A stretch of 57,880 nt of DNA from Ignavibacteriae bacterium HGW-Ignavibacteriae-1 (GTDB taxonomy: Bacteria; Bacteroidota; Ignavibacteria; Kapaibacteriales; UBA2268): positions 1-57,880 of the forward strand of contig PGYU01000016.1 in NCBI GenBank assembly GCA_002839825.1, given 5' to 3'. Below, one piece after another: positions 42,261 through 49,172 of this stretch. Both the position numbers and the translations under genes were made by a program. Below the pieces are notes generated by a model that saw nothing but the letters and a program-made list of their open reading frames with translations, did no database searches and was not told the DNA's origin. The number at the start of each line of letters is the position of its first letter. Position 1 is the stretch's first letter.

Positions 42261-42282
42261 AACATCTGAACATTGTTTTTTT

Positions 42283-42392
42283 GTCTGAACTATGATTTTT
42301 TTGATTTAAATGATTTTAATGATTATGTATTTTATCTTTGTATGCTTCTTAATCACTTTAATCATAAAAATCATATTAATCATAGTTCAGAC
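42283..42392. repeat. Inverted-repeat element family B (complete, 110 bp)
   Basis: Perfect 15-bp terminal inverted repeats GTCTGAACTATGATT and AATCATAGTTCAGAC enclose an AT-rich core made of TGATTTTAATGATTA-like steps. It has no coding capacity and looks MITE-like or REP-like. Ends of the same family recur at 42543-42592, 44417-44445, 48644-48905 and 57290-57372. Confidence 0.85.
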
Positions 42393-42414
42393 AACAAAAT
42401 CATAAATTTAAACC

Positions 42415-42495
42415 AATTCATCCGATGACTCCCACAAATTTGCCACAGTTTTAATCAAACCAGTTCATCTGAGAGTACAAGTCATCGGATGAATA
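42415..42495. repeat. Inverted-repeat element family A (81 bp)
   Basis: 15-bp arms ATTCATCCGATGACT (42416-42430) and AGTCATCGGATGAAT (42480-42494) around a core with CCACAGTTTTAATCAAACC and an internal degenerate arm copy (TTCATCTGA). Other copies: 48988-49066, 55805-55885, 57381-57461, and a short one at 42608-42640. Confidence 0.88.
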
Positions 42496-42542
42496 AAAGA
42501 ATTCAAGAGCTTATTAATCATATCAATCCCAAAAATCACATA

Positions 42543-42592
42543 AATCATAGTTCAGGCAACATCACACAAATCATATTAATCATAGTTCAGAC
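42543..42592. repeat. Two solo right ends of family B
   Basis: AATCATAGTTCAGGC (42543-42557) and AATCATAGTTCAGAC (42578-42592), in the same orientation and 35 bases apart. With the elements on either side they fill the 520-base gap between hmgA and the next gene, which holds no gene. Confidence 0.7.
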
Positions 42593-42607
42593 AACAAGCT
42601 CAATCCA

Positions 42608-42640
42608 ATTCATCCGAAGACTCGAGCTCATCGGATGAAT
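42608..42640. repeat. Shortened family A element
   Basis: The two arms are nearly fused (ATTCATCCGAAGACTCGAG ... CTCATCGGATGAAT), with the ~50-base core deleted. Confidence 0.75.
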
Positions 42641-42782: not shown

Positions 42783-44414
42783 ATGAAAAAGTTATTATTC
42801 TTAAGTTGCTCTATTATGTTAGTCATTTTGTGGTCAAATTATACTTACTCTTTACCCAAACCCGGTGAGGATGAATTACAACGCAAACCTGTAAATGTCA
42901 GAGATTTACAAAAAAACACCATAAGCAGCATTGATTTTTATAATACAAATTATGGTATTATAGGACATAATGCAGCTACCACCAGAGGTGGTCTATTTTG
43001 GCCCCGAGGAACTTCAAATCAATACCTTTTTGCATCGGGATTCTGGTTTGGTGCACAAAAAATGAAGCCTGATAAGTCTGAAATGTACAAGTATGTTACC
43101 ATTAGTTACAATCCAAATAGTGGAATTTCATGGTTAGTTCCGGGAATTATAAGAGAGGAACAAGATAATGTTGATGCATCTAAATTATATATGCATCGGA
43201 TTTATTATTCTACCGATTTCAATGAAGCAACCGGACAAGCTTATGATAAATCAGACGGACCTGCTTGGCCCCTTTGGAAAAATTCTGACACACAACAACT
43301 TTGTGAATACTCAGAAAATGATTTTGAATATGATACAAATAGTAGAAATACTAATCGCTACCCATTAGGTCATTTAGTTATTTCTGATGAAGATATGTTT
43401 TGTACCTATAAAGATACCGATTTGAGTAGTTATGAAGGCGGGGCATTAGCTAGACGAGCACTGGGATATCCTTTACGACTTCAAGTATATCAAAGGGTTT
43501 TAACTTGGAATTCTGACCACACTTTGAAAGATTGTGCAATTGTGCAGTATCTTTTAACAAATGAATCACAAGACACCTTGAAAAATTGTTATTTTGCCCC
43601 TCTTTATGATATAGATATTGGTTTAACTTCAGAGCAAGCAAAAAACGATAGATTAAGATATTACGATTACGATAAATCTCTAAACTTAGCTGTTGGATGG
43701 ACAAATACGAACCTAGGTGAACTTGGTTCAGGGTATGGCTATATAGGAGTTTCTTTGATTGAAACACCAGCTATTGATGATGAAGGCTATATTAAGAAGG
43801 GTTTATCATACTATCCCTCTGACCAACAACTCGGAATTTCAACTTTTAAGAATTGGCCTATTGAAGAAGATCGAGCTCTTGATAATGAACGATACGACTT
43901 CATAAGTTCACATATCATAGATGGAGATACCGGTCCCGGAGATAAAAGATTGATGTTTTCTACCGGACCATTTCATTTACTACCAAAAGAAACTATAAGG
44001 GTTGCAGTACTAATTGCTTTCGCCATGCCTTGCAAAGGTGGCGAAGCTGATGGCACTACTGAAGACATATCTTGTGTAAACGGTCTTGAAGGGAAGGCCA
44101 AAAGAGCAATTAGTTATTATTATTCTCCTAAGACTTCAGTGGATGAAAATGCAAATCCTATAATTAATTTAGCCATCCACCCAAATCCCGCAAGCGAATA
44201 TATTGAAATTAGTTCTCCATTTATCAACCCTACGGTTAACCGTGGGGTTGATGAAAGTTCAGAAATCAAAATCTTCAATACACTTGGCGAATGTGTAATA
44301 TCTGTAGAGACACGGCATGCCGTGTCTCTACAAAGAATTGATATTTCGCATCTGCCTCGTGGCGTTTATTATCTCCGTATCGGCAATCGGACGCAGATGT
44401 TTGTGAAGATGTAA
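42783..44414 (+). CDS. T9SS cargo protein of unknown function with palindrome-bearing sorting domain
   Basis: A 543-residue secreted protein: signal peptide (residues 1-24), a large beta-rich body with ISSIDFYNTNYGIIGHN, GLFWPRGTSNQYLFASGFWF and LSYYPSDQQLGISTF, and a type A T9SS sorting domain from about residue 465 (HPNPASEYIEI, KIFNTLGECV, LPRGVYYLRIGNRT). I do not recognise the body; similar proteins are annotated only by the sorting domain. Two 30-bp palindromes lie in frame within the sorting domain (44223-44252, 44303-44332), encoding the loop residues NPTVNRGV and ETRHAVSLQ. The tail is nearly identical to that of the gene at 46423. Likely secreted to the cell surface. Confidence 0.85.
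   Translation: MKKLLFLSCSIMLVILWSNYTYSLPKPGEDELQRKPVNVRDLQKNTISSIDFYNTNYGIIGHNAATTRGGLFWPRGTSNQYLFASGFWFGAQKMKPDKSEMYKYVTISYNPNSGISWLVPGIIREEQDNVDASKLYMHRIYYSTDFNEATGQAYDKSDGPAWPLWKNSDTQQLCEYSENDFEYDTNSRNTNRYPLGHLVISDEDMFCTYKDTDLSSYEGGALARRALGYPLRLQVYQRVLTWNSDHTLKDCAIVQYLLTNESQDTLKNCYFAPLYDIDIGLTSEQAKNDRLRYYDYDKSLNLAVGWTNTNLGELGSGYGYIGVSLIETPAIDDEGYIKKGLSYYPSDQQLGISTFKNWPIEEDRALDNERYDFISSHIIDGDTGPGDKRLMFSTGPFHLLPKETIRVAVLIAFAMPCKGGEADGTTEDISCVNGLEGKAKRAISYYYSPKTSVDENANPIINLAIHPNPASEYIEISSPFINPTVNRGVDESSEIKIFNTLGECVISVETRHAVSLQRIDISHLPRGVYYLRIGNRTQMFVKM
44223..44252. repeat. In-frame palindrome, family C (loop 1 of T9SS domain)
   Basis: 30-bp palindrome with 15-base arms ATCAACCCTACGGTT / AACCGTGGGGTTGAT; only one position is a T-G pair. 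The second copy is at 48424-48453. Confidence 0.9.
44303..44332. repeat. In-frame palindrome, family D (loop 2 of T9SS domain)
   Basis: Perfect 30-bp palindrome with arms TGTAGAGACACGGCA / TGCCGTGTCTCTACA. GTAGAGAC...GTCTCTAC repeats are known as dispersed elements in several bacterial phyla. The second copy is at 48504-48533. Confidence 0.92.
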
Positions 44415-44501: not shown

Positions 44502-45944
44502 ATGAGAAGGTATGTACGTCTATTTCTTTTTCCATTGGGAATTCTGTTCCTTTTCGCTTTCCAACCTTCATCAAATGATGAGTACATTGTGATTGGTTGG
44601 AATGATCTCGGCATGCATTGTATGAACAAAGATTTTAGTAATCTCGCCATACTACCTCCTTACAACAATCTAATGGCTCAGGTTATCAAAAAAGGTAACT
44701 CAAGTACTAATCCTAAAGTTATTACAGACGAAATGAAAATTACATACGAAATACCCGGGAATACATATTCCGTCGGTAAAACTAATTTCTGGACTTATGC
44801 AAAGCACCTTTTCGGTGTTGATTTAAAAGACGATATTGGTTTAACCGGCAAAGGATTAACCGGAGTAATGGATAAAAAGGATAACTATTACCTTGCTGAA
44901 GGTATTCCGATAACTCCCTTTACTGATAATGACCATATAAATGAAGACCCATACCAATTAGCACATCTCAAAGTATATAATTCCAGTAACATAGTTATGA
45001 CTTCTACAAACACTGTGATACCGGTATCTACTGAAATGAATTGCGTTGGGTCCGGTTGTCATAGTAGTGAACAACACATTTTAAACAAACACGACAAGGA
45101 AGATGGTTTTGACCCAAATAAAAAACCGATATTGTGTGCTTCATGCCATGCTTCAAATGCACTGGGTACCAAAGGTCAGCACGAAGCAAAATCATTTTCG
45201 TTTATAATTCATGATAAACATGCAGAAAAAGCAAAAGATAATTGTTATAAGTGTCATCCGGGCGAAAAAACACAATGTTATCGTGATGTTATGTTGAAAG
45301 CAGGCTTGAAATGCCAAAACTGCCATGGAACCATGAAAGAAATTGCAAAATCTATTGAAAAAGGGCGTCAACCTTGGCTCGAAGAACCATCCTGTGGAAG
45401 TTCCATATGTCATGGTTCAGCTTTTGCTGAGGAGAAAGGTAAATTATATCGGCAATCAAAAGGTCATGGTGGCATTTATTGCAGTGCATGTCATGGTTCA
45501 CCTCATGCTATTGTGCCTACAGGTGAATTAACAAGAGATAATGTACAGAATGTTGCATTGCAGGGATATGAAGGAATTTTAGCCAAATGTGAAGTTTGTC
45601 ATGGTATAAAACCGGACGGTTTAGGTCCTCACAATATCCTGTTAACACAAGTAAAAATTGAGGATGAGAGTATATCGAGTAGTGGAACTAAATTTAACAA
45701 TCCATATCCAAATCCGGCGATAAATAAAATTACGATTCCTTTTGATTTAAACGAAGAAGGTAATGTAAATATTGAAATCTTTGATATGGCTGGTAATCAT
45801 CAAATTACAGCAGTCAATCAATTCCTTTTATCGGCACAGTACAGTATTGATGTGGATTTAAGGACATTAAATTCCGGTAGTTATGTCTATATTCTTTCCC
45901 TTAATGGAAAAAAAATTAAAGGGAATTTCAATGTTGCAAAATAA
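44502..45944 (+). CDS. Secreted multihaem cytochrome c with T9SS sorting domain
   Basis: A 480-residue protein with a signal peptide (residues about 5-22). It has five canonical haem c motifs (CASCH, CYKCH, CQNCH, CSACH, CEVCH) and two CxxxxCH variants (CVGSGCH, CGSSICH), hence up to seven haems. The N-terminal WNDLGMHCMNKDFSNLAILP segment recalls a family of multihaem proteins in metal-reducing and anaerobic bacteria. The last 80 residues form a T9SS sorting domain (NPYPNPAINKITIPF, EIFDMAGNHQI, LNSGSYVYILSLNGK), so the cytochrome is predicted to reach the cell surface. AAAGGAG is the ribosome site. Electron transfer to or from extracellular partners is inferred; no porin or partner cytochrome is adjacent. 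Confidence 0.9.
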   Translation: MRRYVRLFLFPLGILFLFAFQPSSNDEYIVIGWNDLGMHCMNKDFSNLAILPPYNNLMAQVIKKGNSSTNPKVITDEMKITYEIPGNTYSVGKTNFWTYAKHLFGVDLKDDIGLTGKGLTGVMDKKDNYYLAEGIPITPFTDNDHINEDPYQLAHLKVYNSSNIVMTSTNTVIPVSTEMNCVGSGCHSSEQHILNKHDKEDGFDPNKKPILCASCHASNALGTKGQHEAKSFSFIIHDKHAEKAKDNCYKCHPGEKTQCYRDVMLKAGLKCQNCHGTMKEIAKSIEKGRQPWLEEPSCGSSICHGSAFAEEKGKLYRQSKGHGGIYCSACHGSPHAIVPTGELTRDNVQNVALQGYEGILAKCEVCHGIKPDGLGPHNILLTQVKIEDESISSSGTKFNNPYPNPAINKITIPFDLNEEGNVNIEIFDMAGNHQITAVNQFLLSAQYSIDVDLRTLNSGSYVYILSLNGKKIKGNFNVAK

Positions 45945-45989: not shown

Positions 45990-46026
45990 GGGACAAATAT
46001 CCGGCAAGCGAATATATTACATTTCA

Positions 46027-46057
46027 AACTTCGGAAGTTTTGGAAACTTCCGAAGTT
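46027..46057. repeat. Palindrome family F in the decayed sorting domain (loop 1 position)
   Basis: 14-base perfect arms AACTTCGGAAGTTT / AAACTTCCGAAGTT with loop TGG. It occupies the place taken by family C in the two intact tails. Confidence 0.85.
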
Positions 46058-46102
46058 CTAAGGTTAAAATATAGAATACACTCGGCGAATGTGTAATGAC
46101 CA

Positions 46103-46121
46103 CCCTACGACAGGCTCAGGG
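46103..46121. repeat. GACAGGCTCAGGG element (loop 2 position)
   Basis: CCCTACGACAGGCTCAGGG resembles the dispersed CCTTCGACAGGCTCAGGG repeats of many bacterial genomes. Here it replaces the family D palindrome between GECV and RIDISHLP. Confidence 0.7.
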
Positions 46122-46232
46122 AACGGACACAAGAATTGATATTTCGCATTTGCCTCGCGGCGTATATTACGTCCGCATCGGCAGCCAAACACAGGTGTTT
46201 GTGAAGATGTAACAAACGTATCTCACCATATG

Positions 46233-46305: not shown

Positions 46306-46422
46306 AATTGACAAAGTTTTTTTCTTCCAAAATTTGTAACTTTATAAGCTTTCATTTGTTATTTTGGAATGTGGAGATTGTCAAAATGTAAAATGTTATT
46401 TAGTTATATATGGGAGATTGGT

Positions 46423-48615
46423 ATGAAAAATTTTGCTACCATTTTATTCGTGACTCTACTTTTTAGTAGTTCTTTATTCGGTTGGACTAAAGGTTCGTTT
46501 TTTCAACCTGAATTTATTTCAAACCCCTACAATGACGAAGAAATTGTTTTTATTGGTTCTTCCAAAATTGGTAATCAAAATGTTTGTAGATTAGATATTA
46601 ACACAGGTGAACTTGATTTTGATAGGATTTTATTACCATCTTCAGAAGGGGAACTCAAGGATGTCATTATCAATGGAGAATCTAAACGAATCGGATACCT
46701 TTTACAAGGGATAATAGCAATATTCAATTACATGGATTTTACGGAAATTGCAAATTTCACTTTTAATTACACAGGAGACTCGGAAGACACGAAAGTCAGC
46801 TTTTCAAAGGACGGAAATAAGGTTTACACTCTCAAAAAGAGCGAGTTAAGATTGTCTGTTTACGACATTCCATCCGGCACAAAATTAGACGAAATTATCA
46901 TTAATGCCAACCCTACATTTTATTCGGGTGCATTCCTCAATAGCGATAAAGACGAATTCGCTCTGATCATTAATGATTCGCTCGAAATATGGTCAATTTC
47001 CTCTCGAAGTCTTGACCGAAAAATCCCTTTTAACTCAAATGCAGAATTGATTCAGTTCAGAAATTCCGGCGATAATATTACATATAAAATTGGCAAAAAT
47101 ATTTTTATTGTTAGTTCACAAACTGGTGCCGAAATCTTTAGTCAGACATTGCCATTCGATATTTATTACTACGAATTTTCGGCAAATATGCAATATATGA
47201 TTTGTGATAAAGAACGTTTTGAACAATCAGTTTGGGACATAGTTGCTGATACTCTAATTTTTGAAGGTAATACTTATTACATTTCGGGTATTCACTACAA
47301 TTATATAAATTCAAATAAAACAAGACTTCTTGGAAATGAACAAGAATCAATGTATTGCGAAAGATACATGGAGGATGTTTATACCGAAGCAGTTTACTAC
47401 CTATATAATATTGATGATTATAAAAAGATTAATTCTTTAGGTGACGCTCATATTGGCAATCCAATTGATGCTATAATTAATCCGAATAATAAGCTTATTT
47501 TAATAAGTAGTAATAATGGTGATTATGATGAACCAAATTATATTCACGGATTAGTTGATGAAAATGGTGAATTTCTGAAATTTATACATGTTAACAGAGC
47601 CGCTATTGCGTTTTCGCATGATTCAAAATATGTTGCATTCAACGATACTTCGAGCCTCATGTTATATAATATCGAATCCGACATTGTCGATAAAACTCTT
47701 CAGACTCAGCGACAAACTCTTGGCACAATATTTTTCAGCCCTCAAAATGGCGGATTAATTATTTCGATTACCAATGACTATATTGATGTTTATGATTACA
47801 ACACATTGACATTGAATTATTCTAAGGAATTGACTCCAGAATCCGGTGATGGATATAAGTTTGTTAGCGACCTAAGCGGAAATATTACAATACTATATCC
47901 AACCGGTAAATACTTTGATTTTGATGCCGGGACAGGAGATTTAACAGAAATTACACTGAACAATCTACCCGAAGACAGGACATTCAGGGACATGACAAAC
48001 GACGGCAGATATATACTATGGTCATTTGGGAAAGACAGTATAGTAGTCTATGATACCAAAATCCAAAATATTAAATTTTCTTACAAACACGAGCTCAATA
48101 CTCCTTATGCTGAAGAACTTTCTATAGGATTTCTTGGAAATCATGAAATAGTTTGGTTTTCGTATATTTTTAGTCCGATTGAAAAGAGGAATGTATTTAT
48201 AGCTTATGATTTAGTTGAAAAGCGAGAATTTACATTAGACGGCGAAGGAACCCCAAGAGTCAGTATTGACGGCACAAGATTTATGACTTTGTATTGCCCT
48301 TATATATATTATTTAAACTCAATTCGGCTACCTGTTTCAGTAGATGAAGGTACATTACCGGACAACTCATTGACTATTTTCCCAAATCCAGCAACGGAAT
48401 ATATTACAATTAGTTCCTCCACTATCAACCCTACGGTTAACCGTGGGGTTGATGAAAGTTCAGAAATCAAAATCTTCAATACTCTCGGCGAATGTGTAAT
48501 ATCTGTAGAGACACGACATGCCGTGTCTCTACAAAGAATTATTGTTTCGCACTTGCCTCGTGGCGTGTACTACGTCCGTATCGGCAATCGGACGCAGATG
48601 TTTGTGAAGATTTGA
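46423..48615 (+). CDS. Secreted WD40/beta-propeller-like protein with palindrome-bearing T9SS tail
   Basis: From the chosen ATG it has 730 residues; the start is supported by GGGAG at 46412-46416 and the signal peptide MKNFATILFVTLLFSSSLFG. An in-frame ATG 54 bases earlier lacks both. The body is a string of propeller-like blades (NPYNDEEIVFIGSSKIGNQN, SFSKDGNKVYTLKKSELRLS, NPIDAIINPNNKLILISSN, FFSPQNGGLIISI). The last 80 residues are a T9SS domain (FPNPATEYITI, KIFNTLGECV, LPRGVYYVRIGNRT) almost identical at DNA level to that of 42783-44414, including both palindromes. Cell-surface location is predicted; ligand unknown. Confidence 0.87.
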   Translation: MKNFATILFVTLLFSSSLFGWTKGSFFQPEFISNPYNDEEIVFIGSSKIGNQNVCRLDINTGELDFDRILLPSSEGELKDVIINGESKRIGYLLQGIIAIFNYMDFTEIANFTFNYTGDSEDTKVSFSKDGNKVYTLKKSELRLSVYDIPSGTKLDEIIINANPTFYSGAFLNSDKDEFALIINDSLEIWSISSRSLDRKIPFNSNAELIQFRNSGDNITYKIGKNIFIVSSQTGAEIFSQTLPFDIYYYEFSANMQYMICDKERFEQSVWDIVADTLIFEGNTYYISGIHYNYINSNKTRLLGNEQESMYCERYMEDVYTEAVYYLYNIDDYKKINSLGDAHIGNPIDAIINPNNKLILISSNNGDYDEPNYIHGLVDENGEFLKFIHVNRAAIAFSHDSKYVAFNDTSSLMLYNIESDIVDKTLQTQRQTLGTIFFSPQNGGLIISITNDYIDVYDYNTLTLNYSKELTPESGDGYKFVSDLSGNITILYPTGKYFDFDAGTGDLTEITLNNLPEDRTFRDMTNDGRYILWSFGKDSIVVYDTKIQNIKFSYKHELNTPYAEELSIGFLGNHEIVWFSYIFSPIEKRNVFIAYDLVEKREFTLDGEGTPRVSIDGTRFMTLYCPYIYYLNSIRLPVSVDEGTLPDNSLTIFPNPATEYITISSSTINPTVNRGVDESSEIKIFNTLGECVISVETRHAVSLQRIIVSHLPRGVYYVRIGNRTQMFVKI
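48424..48453. repeat. In-frame palindrome family C, second copy
   Basis: Identical in its 30 bases to 44223-44252, and also encodes INPTVNRGVD. Confidence 0.9.
48504..48533. repeat. In-frame palindrome family D, second copy
   Basis: Same as 44303-44332 with one base changed (CGACATGCCG in the centre). Confidence 0.9.
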
Positions 48616-48643
48616 ACTATGATTTTGTCTGAACTATGCTTTT

Positions 48644-48905
48644 GTCTGAACTATGATTTTTTTGATTAAACTGATTTTTATGATTTGTATTTTTTTTGGT
48701 CAAGTGTAAGACCTGACGGGACAGAATCTTCTTACGTGACTTGTGTTAAAGATATATAATCGCTTCGCGATAAAACTTACCCCGAAGGGGTTGTATATCT
48801 ATAACTTTACACCCATGAGCCTAGACTCTTTACCCCGAAGGGGTTAAATCATTGCATTTTCTTCATCAAACTAATCAAACAAATCATATAAATCATAGTT
48901 CAGAC
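48644..48905. repeat. Family B element enlarged by nested palindromes
   Basis: Ends GTCTGAACTATGATT (48644-48658) and AATCATAGTTCAGAC (48891-48905) enclose 262 bases instead of 110. The extra sequence contains family E (48699-48717), ATCGCTTCGCGAT (48759-48771) and two copies of ACCCCGAAGGGGTT (about 48779-48792 and 48832-48845). This suggests insertion of other elements into a family B copy. Apart from repeats, nothing is seen in the 600-base gap from 48616 to 49218. Confidence 0.75.
48759..48846. repeat. Composite palindrome cluster (TCGCTTCGCGA and CCCCGAAGGGG x2)
   Basis: ATCGC-TTC-GCGAT followed by two direct copies of TTACCCCGAAGGGGTT-like hairpins 53 bases apart. No coding potential. 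Confidence 0.7.
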
Positions 48906-48987
48906 ATCAACTTAATCACACAAATCACGTAAATCATAGTTCAGATAACATCACCCAAATCACATAAATCATAGTTACGACAGAACA

Positions 48988-49066
48988 ATTCATCCGATGA
49001 CTCCCTCAAATTTGCCACAGCTTTAATCAACCAATTCATCTGAATACTCAAAGTCATCGGATGAAT
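48988..49066. repeat. Inverted-repeat element family A
   Basis: Arms 48988-49002 and 49052-49066 are identical to those at 42416-42494. Truncated family B right ends flank it (48932-48946, 48967-48976 and about 49114-49128). Confidence 0.87.
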
Positions 49067-49172
49067 AAAAGAATTGAAGCGCTTCTTCATCATCATAATC
49101 ACCCAAATCATATAAATCATAGTTCAGAAAAAAACTTATGTTTAGACATGCAATTTTTTAAGTTGATTTACG

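Follow-up and report, generated by a model that had tools for sequence, protein, structure and literature searches.

How two 30-nucleotide palindromes come to lie in frame within the sorting domain of a surface-protein gene, and how far such inserts extend beyond it, is the question raised by a stretch of DNA from Ignavibacteriae bacterium HGW-Ignavibacteriae-1 (contig PGYU01000016.1; 57,880 nucleotides, all of which were analysed and are called the window). An original prediction, made from the letters alone, had placed one near-perfect and one perfect palindrome in the C-terminal domain (CTD) of the gene at 42783–44414 (forward strand). Both were confirmed at the positions given: 44223–44252 (ATCAACCCTACGGTTAACCGTGGGGTTGAT; type A) contains one mismatched pair among 15 and 44303–44332 (TGTAGAGACACGGCATGCCGTGTCTCTACA; type a), with a 28 nt GTAG...CTAC core at 44304–44331, contains none. 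Translation bore out their read-through as INPTVNRGVD and VETRHAVSLQ, respectively. The same two palindromes were found, as had been claimed, in a second surface-protein gene on the forward strand (46369–48615), at 48424–48453 (type A) and 48504–48533 (type a), with one mismatched pair each; the true start of this gene is probably 46423, an internal ATG of the open reading frame (ORF) that opens at 46369. These four are the only loop-free 30-mers of the window with at least 14 of 15 pairs. In 100 simulated order-1 Markov windows such 30-mers had a mean of 0.02 and a maximum of 1, by which chance palindromes were ruled out. A search with the pattern GTAGAGACGCGCCAC, a mistyped form, gave zero matches.

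The tails of the two proteins exceeded the curated cut-offs of TIGR04183 (31.1 and 34.3 bits; cut-off 23) and PF18962 (44.2 and 43.5 bits; cut-off 27) and are assigned on these profile scores as T9SS type A sorting domains; in the PF18962 search of the genome the domains spanned 44175–44408 and 48376–48606 (forward strand). The CTD was modelled with a mean pLDDT of 76.3 and an Ig-like β-sandwich CTD fold. The best PDB match of the model was the mirolase CTD (8qb1; E 4e-4), and chain D of a T9SS substrate complex (8glk) was matched with E 2.6e-3; searched by sequence, the PDB yielded two matches, both weak (E 0.018 and 0.92). Both palindromes had been expected in loops between β-strands. In the model type A (residues 34–43) falls in a loop between strands 26–30 and 46–51 that is predicted to be disordered (pLDDT below 50 at residues 36–43); type a (residues 61–70) takes in the end of strand 57–63, a β-hairpin turn and the start of strand 69–73. 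Profile and fold are shared with T9SS type A sorting domains in general (TIGR04183, PF18962; 8qb1), whereas palindromic inserts at two sites set the present domains apart.

An orphan CTD remnant with one internal stop and no body, absent from the original prediction, lies at about 45999–46212 (forward strand). It carries different repeats at the same two sites: type C at 46026–46058 (site 1) and type e (CCCTACGACAGGCTCAGGGAACGG) at 46103–46126 (site 2), the latter read as LRQAQGT in a codon phase unlike that of most e copies. The cytochrome-like protein encoded at 44502–45944 (Cytochrome_C7 match) also has a T9SS CTD, for which the palindrome scan reported nothing. The segment 42660–46302 (forward strand), which comprises the 42783 gene, the cytochrome gene and the orphan CTD, is absent at this place from a sister genome (G002). 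Intergenic copies of a further palindrome, type c, with three mismatches each, are located at 42608–42640 and 49034–49066. Large inverted and direct repeats built from TTTTGTCTGAACTATGATTT and AATCATAGTTCAGACA occupy 42276–42600 and 48640–49140, flanking the CTD gene cluster in a BIME-like arrangement.

The PF18962 search of this genome (G000) gave 216 candidates, from which 150 CTDs were scored. A strong DNA palindrome (arms of 13, one mismatch allowed, A+T-only ones removed) was present in 30 of the 150. Palindromes lying wholly inside CTDs numbered 49, in 30 CTDs; those merely touching CTDs numbered 50, in 31 CTDs. Relative to a fixed anchor motif, 26 of the 49 were centred 22–28 nt before it (site 1) and 19 were centred 52–61 nt after it (site 2), and four (types A, b and d) could not be placed, in two CTDs with no detected anchor. 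Wherever position is measurable, CTD palindromes occupy one or both of two fixed sites. In the scan of the 150 scored CTDs, sequences that share one site are mutually unrelated. Site 1 holds types A (ATCAACCCTACGGTTAACCGTAGGGTTGAT), B (AACCTTCCGAAGGTTTCGAACCTTCGGAAGGTT), C (AAACTTCGGAAGTTTTGGAAACTTCCGAAGTTT), D (AACAAGGGGTTGCAACCCCTTGTT), E (AGATGGACTCCACTTTCAAAGTGGAGTCCATCT), F (an imperfect CCCCCTCT repeat) and, in the same-genus genome G001, G (decayed ATCAAGCCCA...TGGGCTTGAT); site 2 holds types a (GTAGAGACACGGCATGCCGTGTCTCTAC; relatives a2 and d), b (AGATGTCCAACATCTTGGAGATGTTGGACATCT), c (ATTCATCCGATGACTCCCAGTCATCGGATGAAT) and e (CCCTTCGACAGGCTCAGGGAGCG, less symmetric). The elements are about 24–33 nt long, and on our reading several types (B, C and b) are composed of two inverted 15-mers, each nearly palindromic, with a 3 nt spacer. 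At C40:553330 and C5:33684 of this genome were seen, in that order, a type A copy shortened by an in-frame 12 nt internal deletion and a chimera of types B and C. Two findings had been named that would speak against the original prediction, sorting domains otherwise free of palindromes and conservation of the same residues without palindromic DNA. Neither was seen: many other CTDs carry palindromes, and the peptides of site 2 (VETRHAVSLQ, VETIHELSLQ, VGTQRAVSLQ or VETQHAVSLQ) are every one palindrome-encoded. What it had not foreseen is that one site accommodates many unrelated palindrome families, differing between orthologues.

The two sites are filled in varying combinations. Complete CTDs were used for the counts of combination and phase (36 from G000, 17 from G001, 23 from G002 and one from G015), truncated matches and matches of 60 bits or less being dropped. 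Across the three same-genus genomes, type A was paired with a/b/c/e 11/3/5/9 times and type B 4/4/5/3 times (chi-square test of independence p 0.34, kinship ignored). Rarer types fill fewer combinations, a2 occurring solely with A and D mostly with b. The copying of one CTD cassette carrying both palindromes was ruled out, since types combine across sites. Codon phase is single for A (37/37), B (18/18), a (18/18), b (15/15) and c (12/12), and type e occurs in two phases (19 and 2 copies). The fixed phase of each type, and its fixed orientation as read, argues against frequent independent transposition.

Types A, a/d, B, b and c were found at 90 places genome-wide, of which 48 are in CTDs and 42 elsewhere; none of the 90 is in a non-CTD ORF of at least 150 aa. 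The genome-wide search proposed for the two window palindromes put type A at 15 places, all within Pfam CTD matches, and the GTAG family at 18 places, 11 of them in CTDs. The type A count leaves out three loose-pattern matches with two mismatches; one, at C12:108262, is an A-like palindrome that follows a CTD at a distance of about 40 nt, and the other two lie in long ORFs and look like chance matches. The fraction outside CTDs varies by type (B 20/30, c 14/18, a/d 7/18, b 1/9, A 0/15). In G000 no copy of type A or b is clearly intergenic, the sole non-CTD copy of b lying in a truncated CTD-like stretch (C7:3937). A sample of 554 kb, chosen around CTDs and palindromes, was scanned in addition. 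Within this sample, which unlike the above counts is not genome-wide, 4/5 copies of C and 2/2 of D are in CTDs, 7/19 non-CTD copies of B lie at most 600 nt downstream of a CTD, and strong palindromes of any kind touch CTDs (33 kb) 50 times, with three inside other long ORFs and 79 elsewhere. Full consensus strings gave 95 copies in the sampled DNA, 55 in CTDs and none of the other 40 in a long ORF, a few loop variants being missed. As DNA, the CTDs themselves form a dispersed repeat, an 82 nt tail having 33 matches. At C19:85538, C33:17700 and C26:13952 of this genome, CTD tails lie beyond intact CTD genes and near other repeats, as if CTD ends scatter.

A CTD query was matched in 11 of the 30 genomes searched, this genome included, with 39 matches here, 32 in G001 and 43 in G002 (both of the same genus) and one or two in each of eight others. 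In G001 and G002 the same two CTD sites are used and hold either palindromes seen here or further ones; type b occurs at nine places in G000, eight in G001 and none in G002, a species-specific spread. A pattern composed of the GTAG palindrome and the next β-strand was found in three of 294 genomes of the class (a sample that did not include G001), and such site 2 places number nine in this genome, nine in G002 and ten in G584, a member of another genus of the family. The CTDs of G584 have GTAGAGACACAGCATGCTGTGTCTCTAC at site 2 and other palindromes, for example GTAGAGACAGGTCTCAGACCTGCCTCTAC, at site 1, and GTAG-type palindromes are present in a further genus (G015), yet with another sequence. 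An exact scan for type A in genome_contigs (84,980 species), from which this genome or very near records were possibly omitted, gave one assembly, JAGXRP01, on four contigs. Coding copies thus cluster in CTDs, and the two sites are shared between this genus and a second one of the family, which supports the earlier suggestion that the sorting domain may be a tolerated landing site.

Orthologous genes were compared as pairs of reciprocal best bodies with at least 70% identity and complete CTDs. Among the three same-genus genomes, 22 of 24 such pairs (body identity 72–96%) hold different types at one site or at both, with unclassified sites ('-') counted as a type (site 1 only, six; site 2 only, five; both, 11; neither, two); on classified labels alone 21/24 differ, and the pairs share genes and are hence non-independent. 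The genes at C12:124451 and G002:C4:276951 have 97% identity over the first 480 columns, with types B and A, respectively, at site 1 and c in both at site 2. The first 480 columns of C12:6265 and G002:C3:41559 are identical to two decimals; B is common to both at site 1, and site 2 has c in one and a in the other. In the aligned DNA the replaced tracts measure about 75–115 nt by eye, with matching flanks on either side. The inserts of a protein domain are thus reshuffled in frame, and unusually fast, while the rest of the gene stays much alike. A further pair, L294 (G002) and L076 (G000, C12:21308), are orthologues with 80% identity in a 304-position alignment, and the L294 protein has ten additional residues (30 nt) at site 1, where a variant of A sits. 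Neither CTD belongs to the DNA-related CTD group, so the insert is unlikely to have come from copying of a whole cassette; the shorter L076 form may hold half a type B palindrome, so that it is perhaps not a pristine empty site.

Within a type, identity is 0.92–1.00 for the palindrome, 74–81% for the stretch between the sites (mid) and 62–79% for the stretch before site 1. CTDs of G000 with the same site 1 type are 0.72/0.77/0.72 identical over left/mid/tail, and those with a different type 0.71/0.75/0.71; palindrome type is hardly linked to flanks in this genome. The mid stretch follows site 1 type in G002 (0.81 versus 0.66), and flank differences by type are small in G001, where pairs are few. 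Among 25 distinct GTAG-family sequences, both-sided, pair-keeping changes occur at 8/14 pairs, and 25/350 pair cells are broken. Such paired changes fit the upkeep of the palindrome, whether by selection or mobility or by hairpin-templated correction, a mechanism that could keep palindrome arms matched. Conservation of the encoded peptide was ruled out as the cause, as both the unrelated palindromes and the paired changes alter the peptide.

The sorting domain had also been proposed as a recombination module for swapping surface-protein bodies. In 7/8 testable orthologues, judged by eye in regions chosen around CTDs and with no control, collinearity with sister genomes is lost within or at the CTD (C12:124451, C12:6265, C26:14094, C2:13656, C38:6232, C28:48376 and C5:94146); at C12:121510 it continues past the CTD. 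Some of the seven blocks have a second break on the upstream side of the gene. The block that C12:6265 has in common with G002 is approximately the gene alone, with an upstream break as well, and in comparison with G001 collinearity starts inside the CTD, the protein body in G001 being different. G002 also has an additional stretch of about 9 kb, with four more CTD genes, downstream of the second CTD gene of the window. Other breaks exist, for example at an intergenic palindrome (C2:12141). These patterns are no more than suggestive of gene gain, loss and re-joining at CTDs; the breaks in collinearity favour the proposal, but we infer recombination from gene order rather than observe it.

A single Y1 transposase match was found in G000 (C31:26142; about 1150–1960 of L292), for which a REP-associated family was the best match; this RAYT-like protein scored 63.9 bits to NF047646, below the NCBIfam cut-off of 80. 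AGACTTC[CG]GAAGTCT palindromes lie on both sides of the gene; they have CTTC[CG]GAAG in common with types B and C, yet are not identical to them. The AGACTTC[CG]GAAGTCT repeat has 21 occurrences in the sampled 554 kb. G002 has three IS200-type Y1 transposase genes, at least one of them beside palindrome arrays; that of locus L291 (G002:C14) adjoins arrays of CCCACGGTTGAAACCGTGGG and CCCACGAATTTATTCGTGGG. G001 gave no PF01797 match at E 0.01, although its CTDs have swapped too.

The comparisons with known elements draw on portions of the articles cited. REPINs and RAYTs comprise dispersed small palindromes, often in inverted pairs, and a palindrome-flanked Y1 tyrosine transposase gene (PMC3116915, PMC2817692, PMC8266576), TnpAREP recognition being treated in PMC8266576. 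The present elements are alike in dispersed palindromes and a palindrome-flanked Y1 gene, but the link between transposase and CTD palindromes is only putative. Intragenic REPs with GTAG/CGTC tags (Di Nocera et al., 2013; PMC3733652) are 20–40 bp long, often form inverted dimers and are mostly intergenic, sometimes being read through in genes; recB of two Xanthomonas species carries different REPs at about the same site (PMC3733652). The CTD palindromes are likewise 20–40 bp, multi-copy and dispersed, A and b in G000 only among CTDs and the CTD-like remnant. By eye, an unpaired GTAG/CGTC tag is absent: types a and d start with GTAG, which is paired to CTAC, types A, B, C, D and c lack any tag on the 5' side of their hairpins and b has GTAG on one side only. 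They are therefore not filed as GTAG/CGTC REPs. The genes that host intragenic REPs are, as far as the cited text describes them, diverse and unrelated, with many DNA-repair genes among them, whereas coding copies here are almost confined to one domain family, with two fixed sites, exchange among unrelated types and, in most types, no unpaired tag. Rickettsia palindromic elements (RPEs) are in-frame, translated palindromic repeats in protein genes (reviewed in PMC2229807). They measure 105–146 bp and occur in many unrelated genes, with no one-site swapping described in the portion of that review drawn on; the 24–33 nt elements found here fall outside this size range. In Nematomorpha mitochondria, perfect inverted repeats are kept inside translated genes (PMC6649704), but both arms encode conserved protein, in contrast to the variable loop peptides described here, which differ between orthologues. 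Literature searches for T9SS, sorting domains or Por secretion together with palindromes or gene conversion returned nothing relevant by title and start of abstract, and in a search by DNA string the titles listed were unrelated. Intragenic REPs and RPEs are thus already known; a two-slot, one-domain swapping system was not found in print.

We regard it as probable that two loops of the CTD were entered by REP-like palindromes, which have since spread among CTDs by short-patch exchange, so that the two places serve as exchangeable slots. Palindromes from dispersed REP-like families would occasionally have entered the loops, where an in-frame insert would be harmless. Within each genome they would then have passed between CTDs by such exchange, either as gene conversion or as a RAYT/IS200-type transfer of single-strand hairpins. 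The match between the arms would be maintained by hairpin-templated correction, and the repeated CTD ends would also be points at which neighbouring genes are gained, lost or re-joined. Constant phase together with CTD-only types favours copying among CTDs, uniform palindromes with little flank linkage favour near-precise palindrome exchange, and from both we propose REP-like seeding followed by short-patch spread. For A and b, which have no clearly intergenic copy in G000, a REP origin would rest on analogy. Ordinary gene conversion among the approximately 35 DNA-similar CTD paralogues, with palindromes that are old, passive and not mobile today, would likewise account for the constant phase of each type, for the confinement of A and b to CTDs or a CTD-like remnant in G000 and for replaced tracts that exceed palindrome length, and the 33 matches to the 82 nt tail supply the repeat on which it would act. 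This reading is possible but rather unlikely: the palindromes are far more uniform than the flanks and in G000 unlinked to them, they occur in CTDs of little DNA similarity (for example C40:93440, with no match to the 82 nt tail, and L294), and many copies of B (20/30) and c (14/18) lie outside CTDs.

Active transposition, in which a RAYT/IS200-type transposase targets the two CTD sites and replaces hairpins, appears improbable. The Y1 genes in G000 (one) and G002 (three), of which that of G000 and at least one of G002 adjoin palindrome arrays, the two codon phases of type e at site 2 and the additional palindrome families that fill both sites in another genus would be consistent with it, but G001 has no PF01797 match, nearly every type is single-phase, the GTAG tag is missing from most CTD palindromes and the palindromes beside the G000 gene differ from those in CTDs. 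Slightly less probable still is a function, whereby an mRNA or DNA hairpin or variable loop peptides would benefit the sorting domain, perhaps by signalling recombination or by varying a surface epitope. Palindrome-keeping changes on both sides and the use of a single frame where others are open (for example in types B and C) point towards such a role; against it, 120 of the 150 scored CTDs of G000 have no strong palindrome, hairpin-templated correction could match the arms without selection, and T9SS proteins commonly lose the CTD once exported. Each genome is assembled in multiple contigs, some contigs stop close to a CTD (G000 C23 and G002 C27) and 18/780 CTD pairs share exact stretches of at least 55 nt, so that some junctions could be assembly errors. 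That the whole pattern arose from CTD repeats misjoined in short-read assembly is nevertheless scarcely credible, as it recurs in separately assembled genomes and in another genus, the CTD frames of complete genes remain open and single-site swaps sit within otherwise collinear genes.

Intragenic palindromic repeats so far described are scattered over varied, unrelated proteins, whereas those described here keep to two addresses within a single domain, across dozens of genes. As orthologues of sister species differ more often than they agree, they provide a natural experiment in which one slot is filled by many palindromes. This opens the questions of how repeats move, whether by transposase or gene conversion, and whether coding palindromes drive gene shuffling. 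The T9SS sorting domain seems to accept much sequence change at two positions, which may aid the design of secreted fusions. It is doubtful, though conceivable, that the slots belong to a working exchange system, in which cruciform or hairpin formation starts recombination and constantly reassorts palindromes, CTD segments and whole neighbouring surface-protein genes; if true, this system would be a natural cassette mechanism that remodels the secreted surface proteome.
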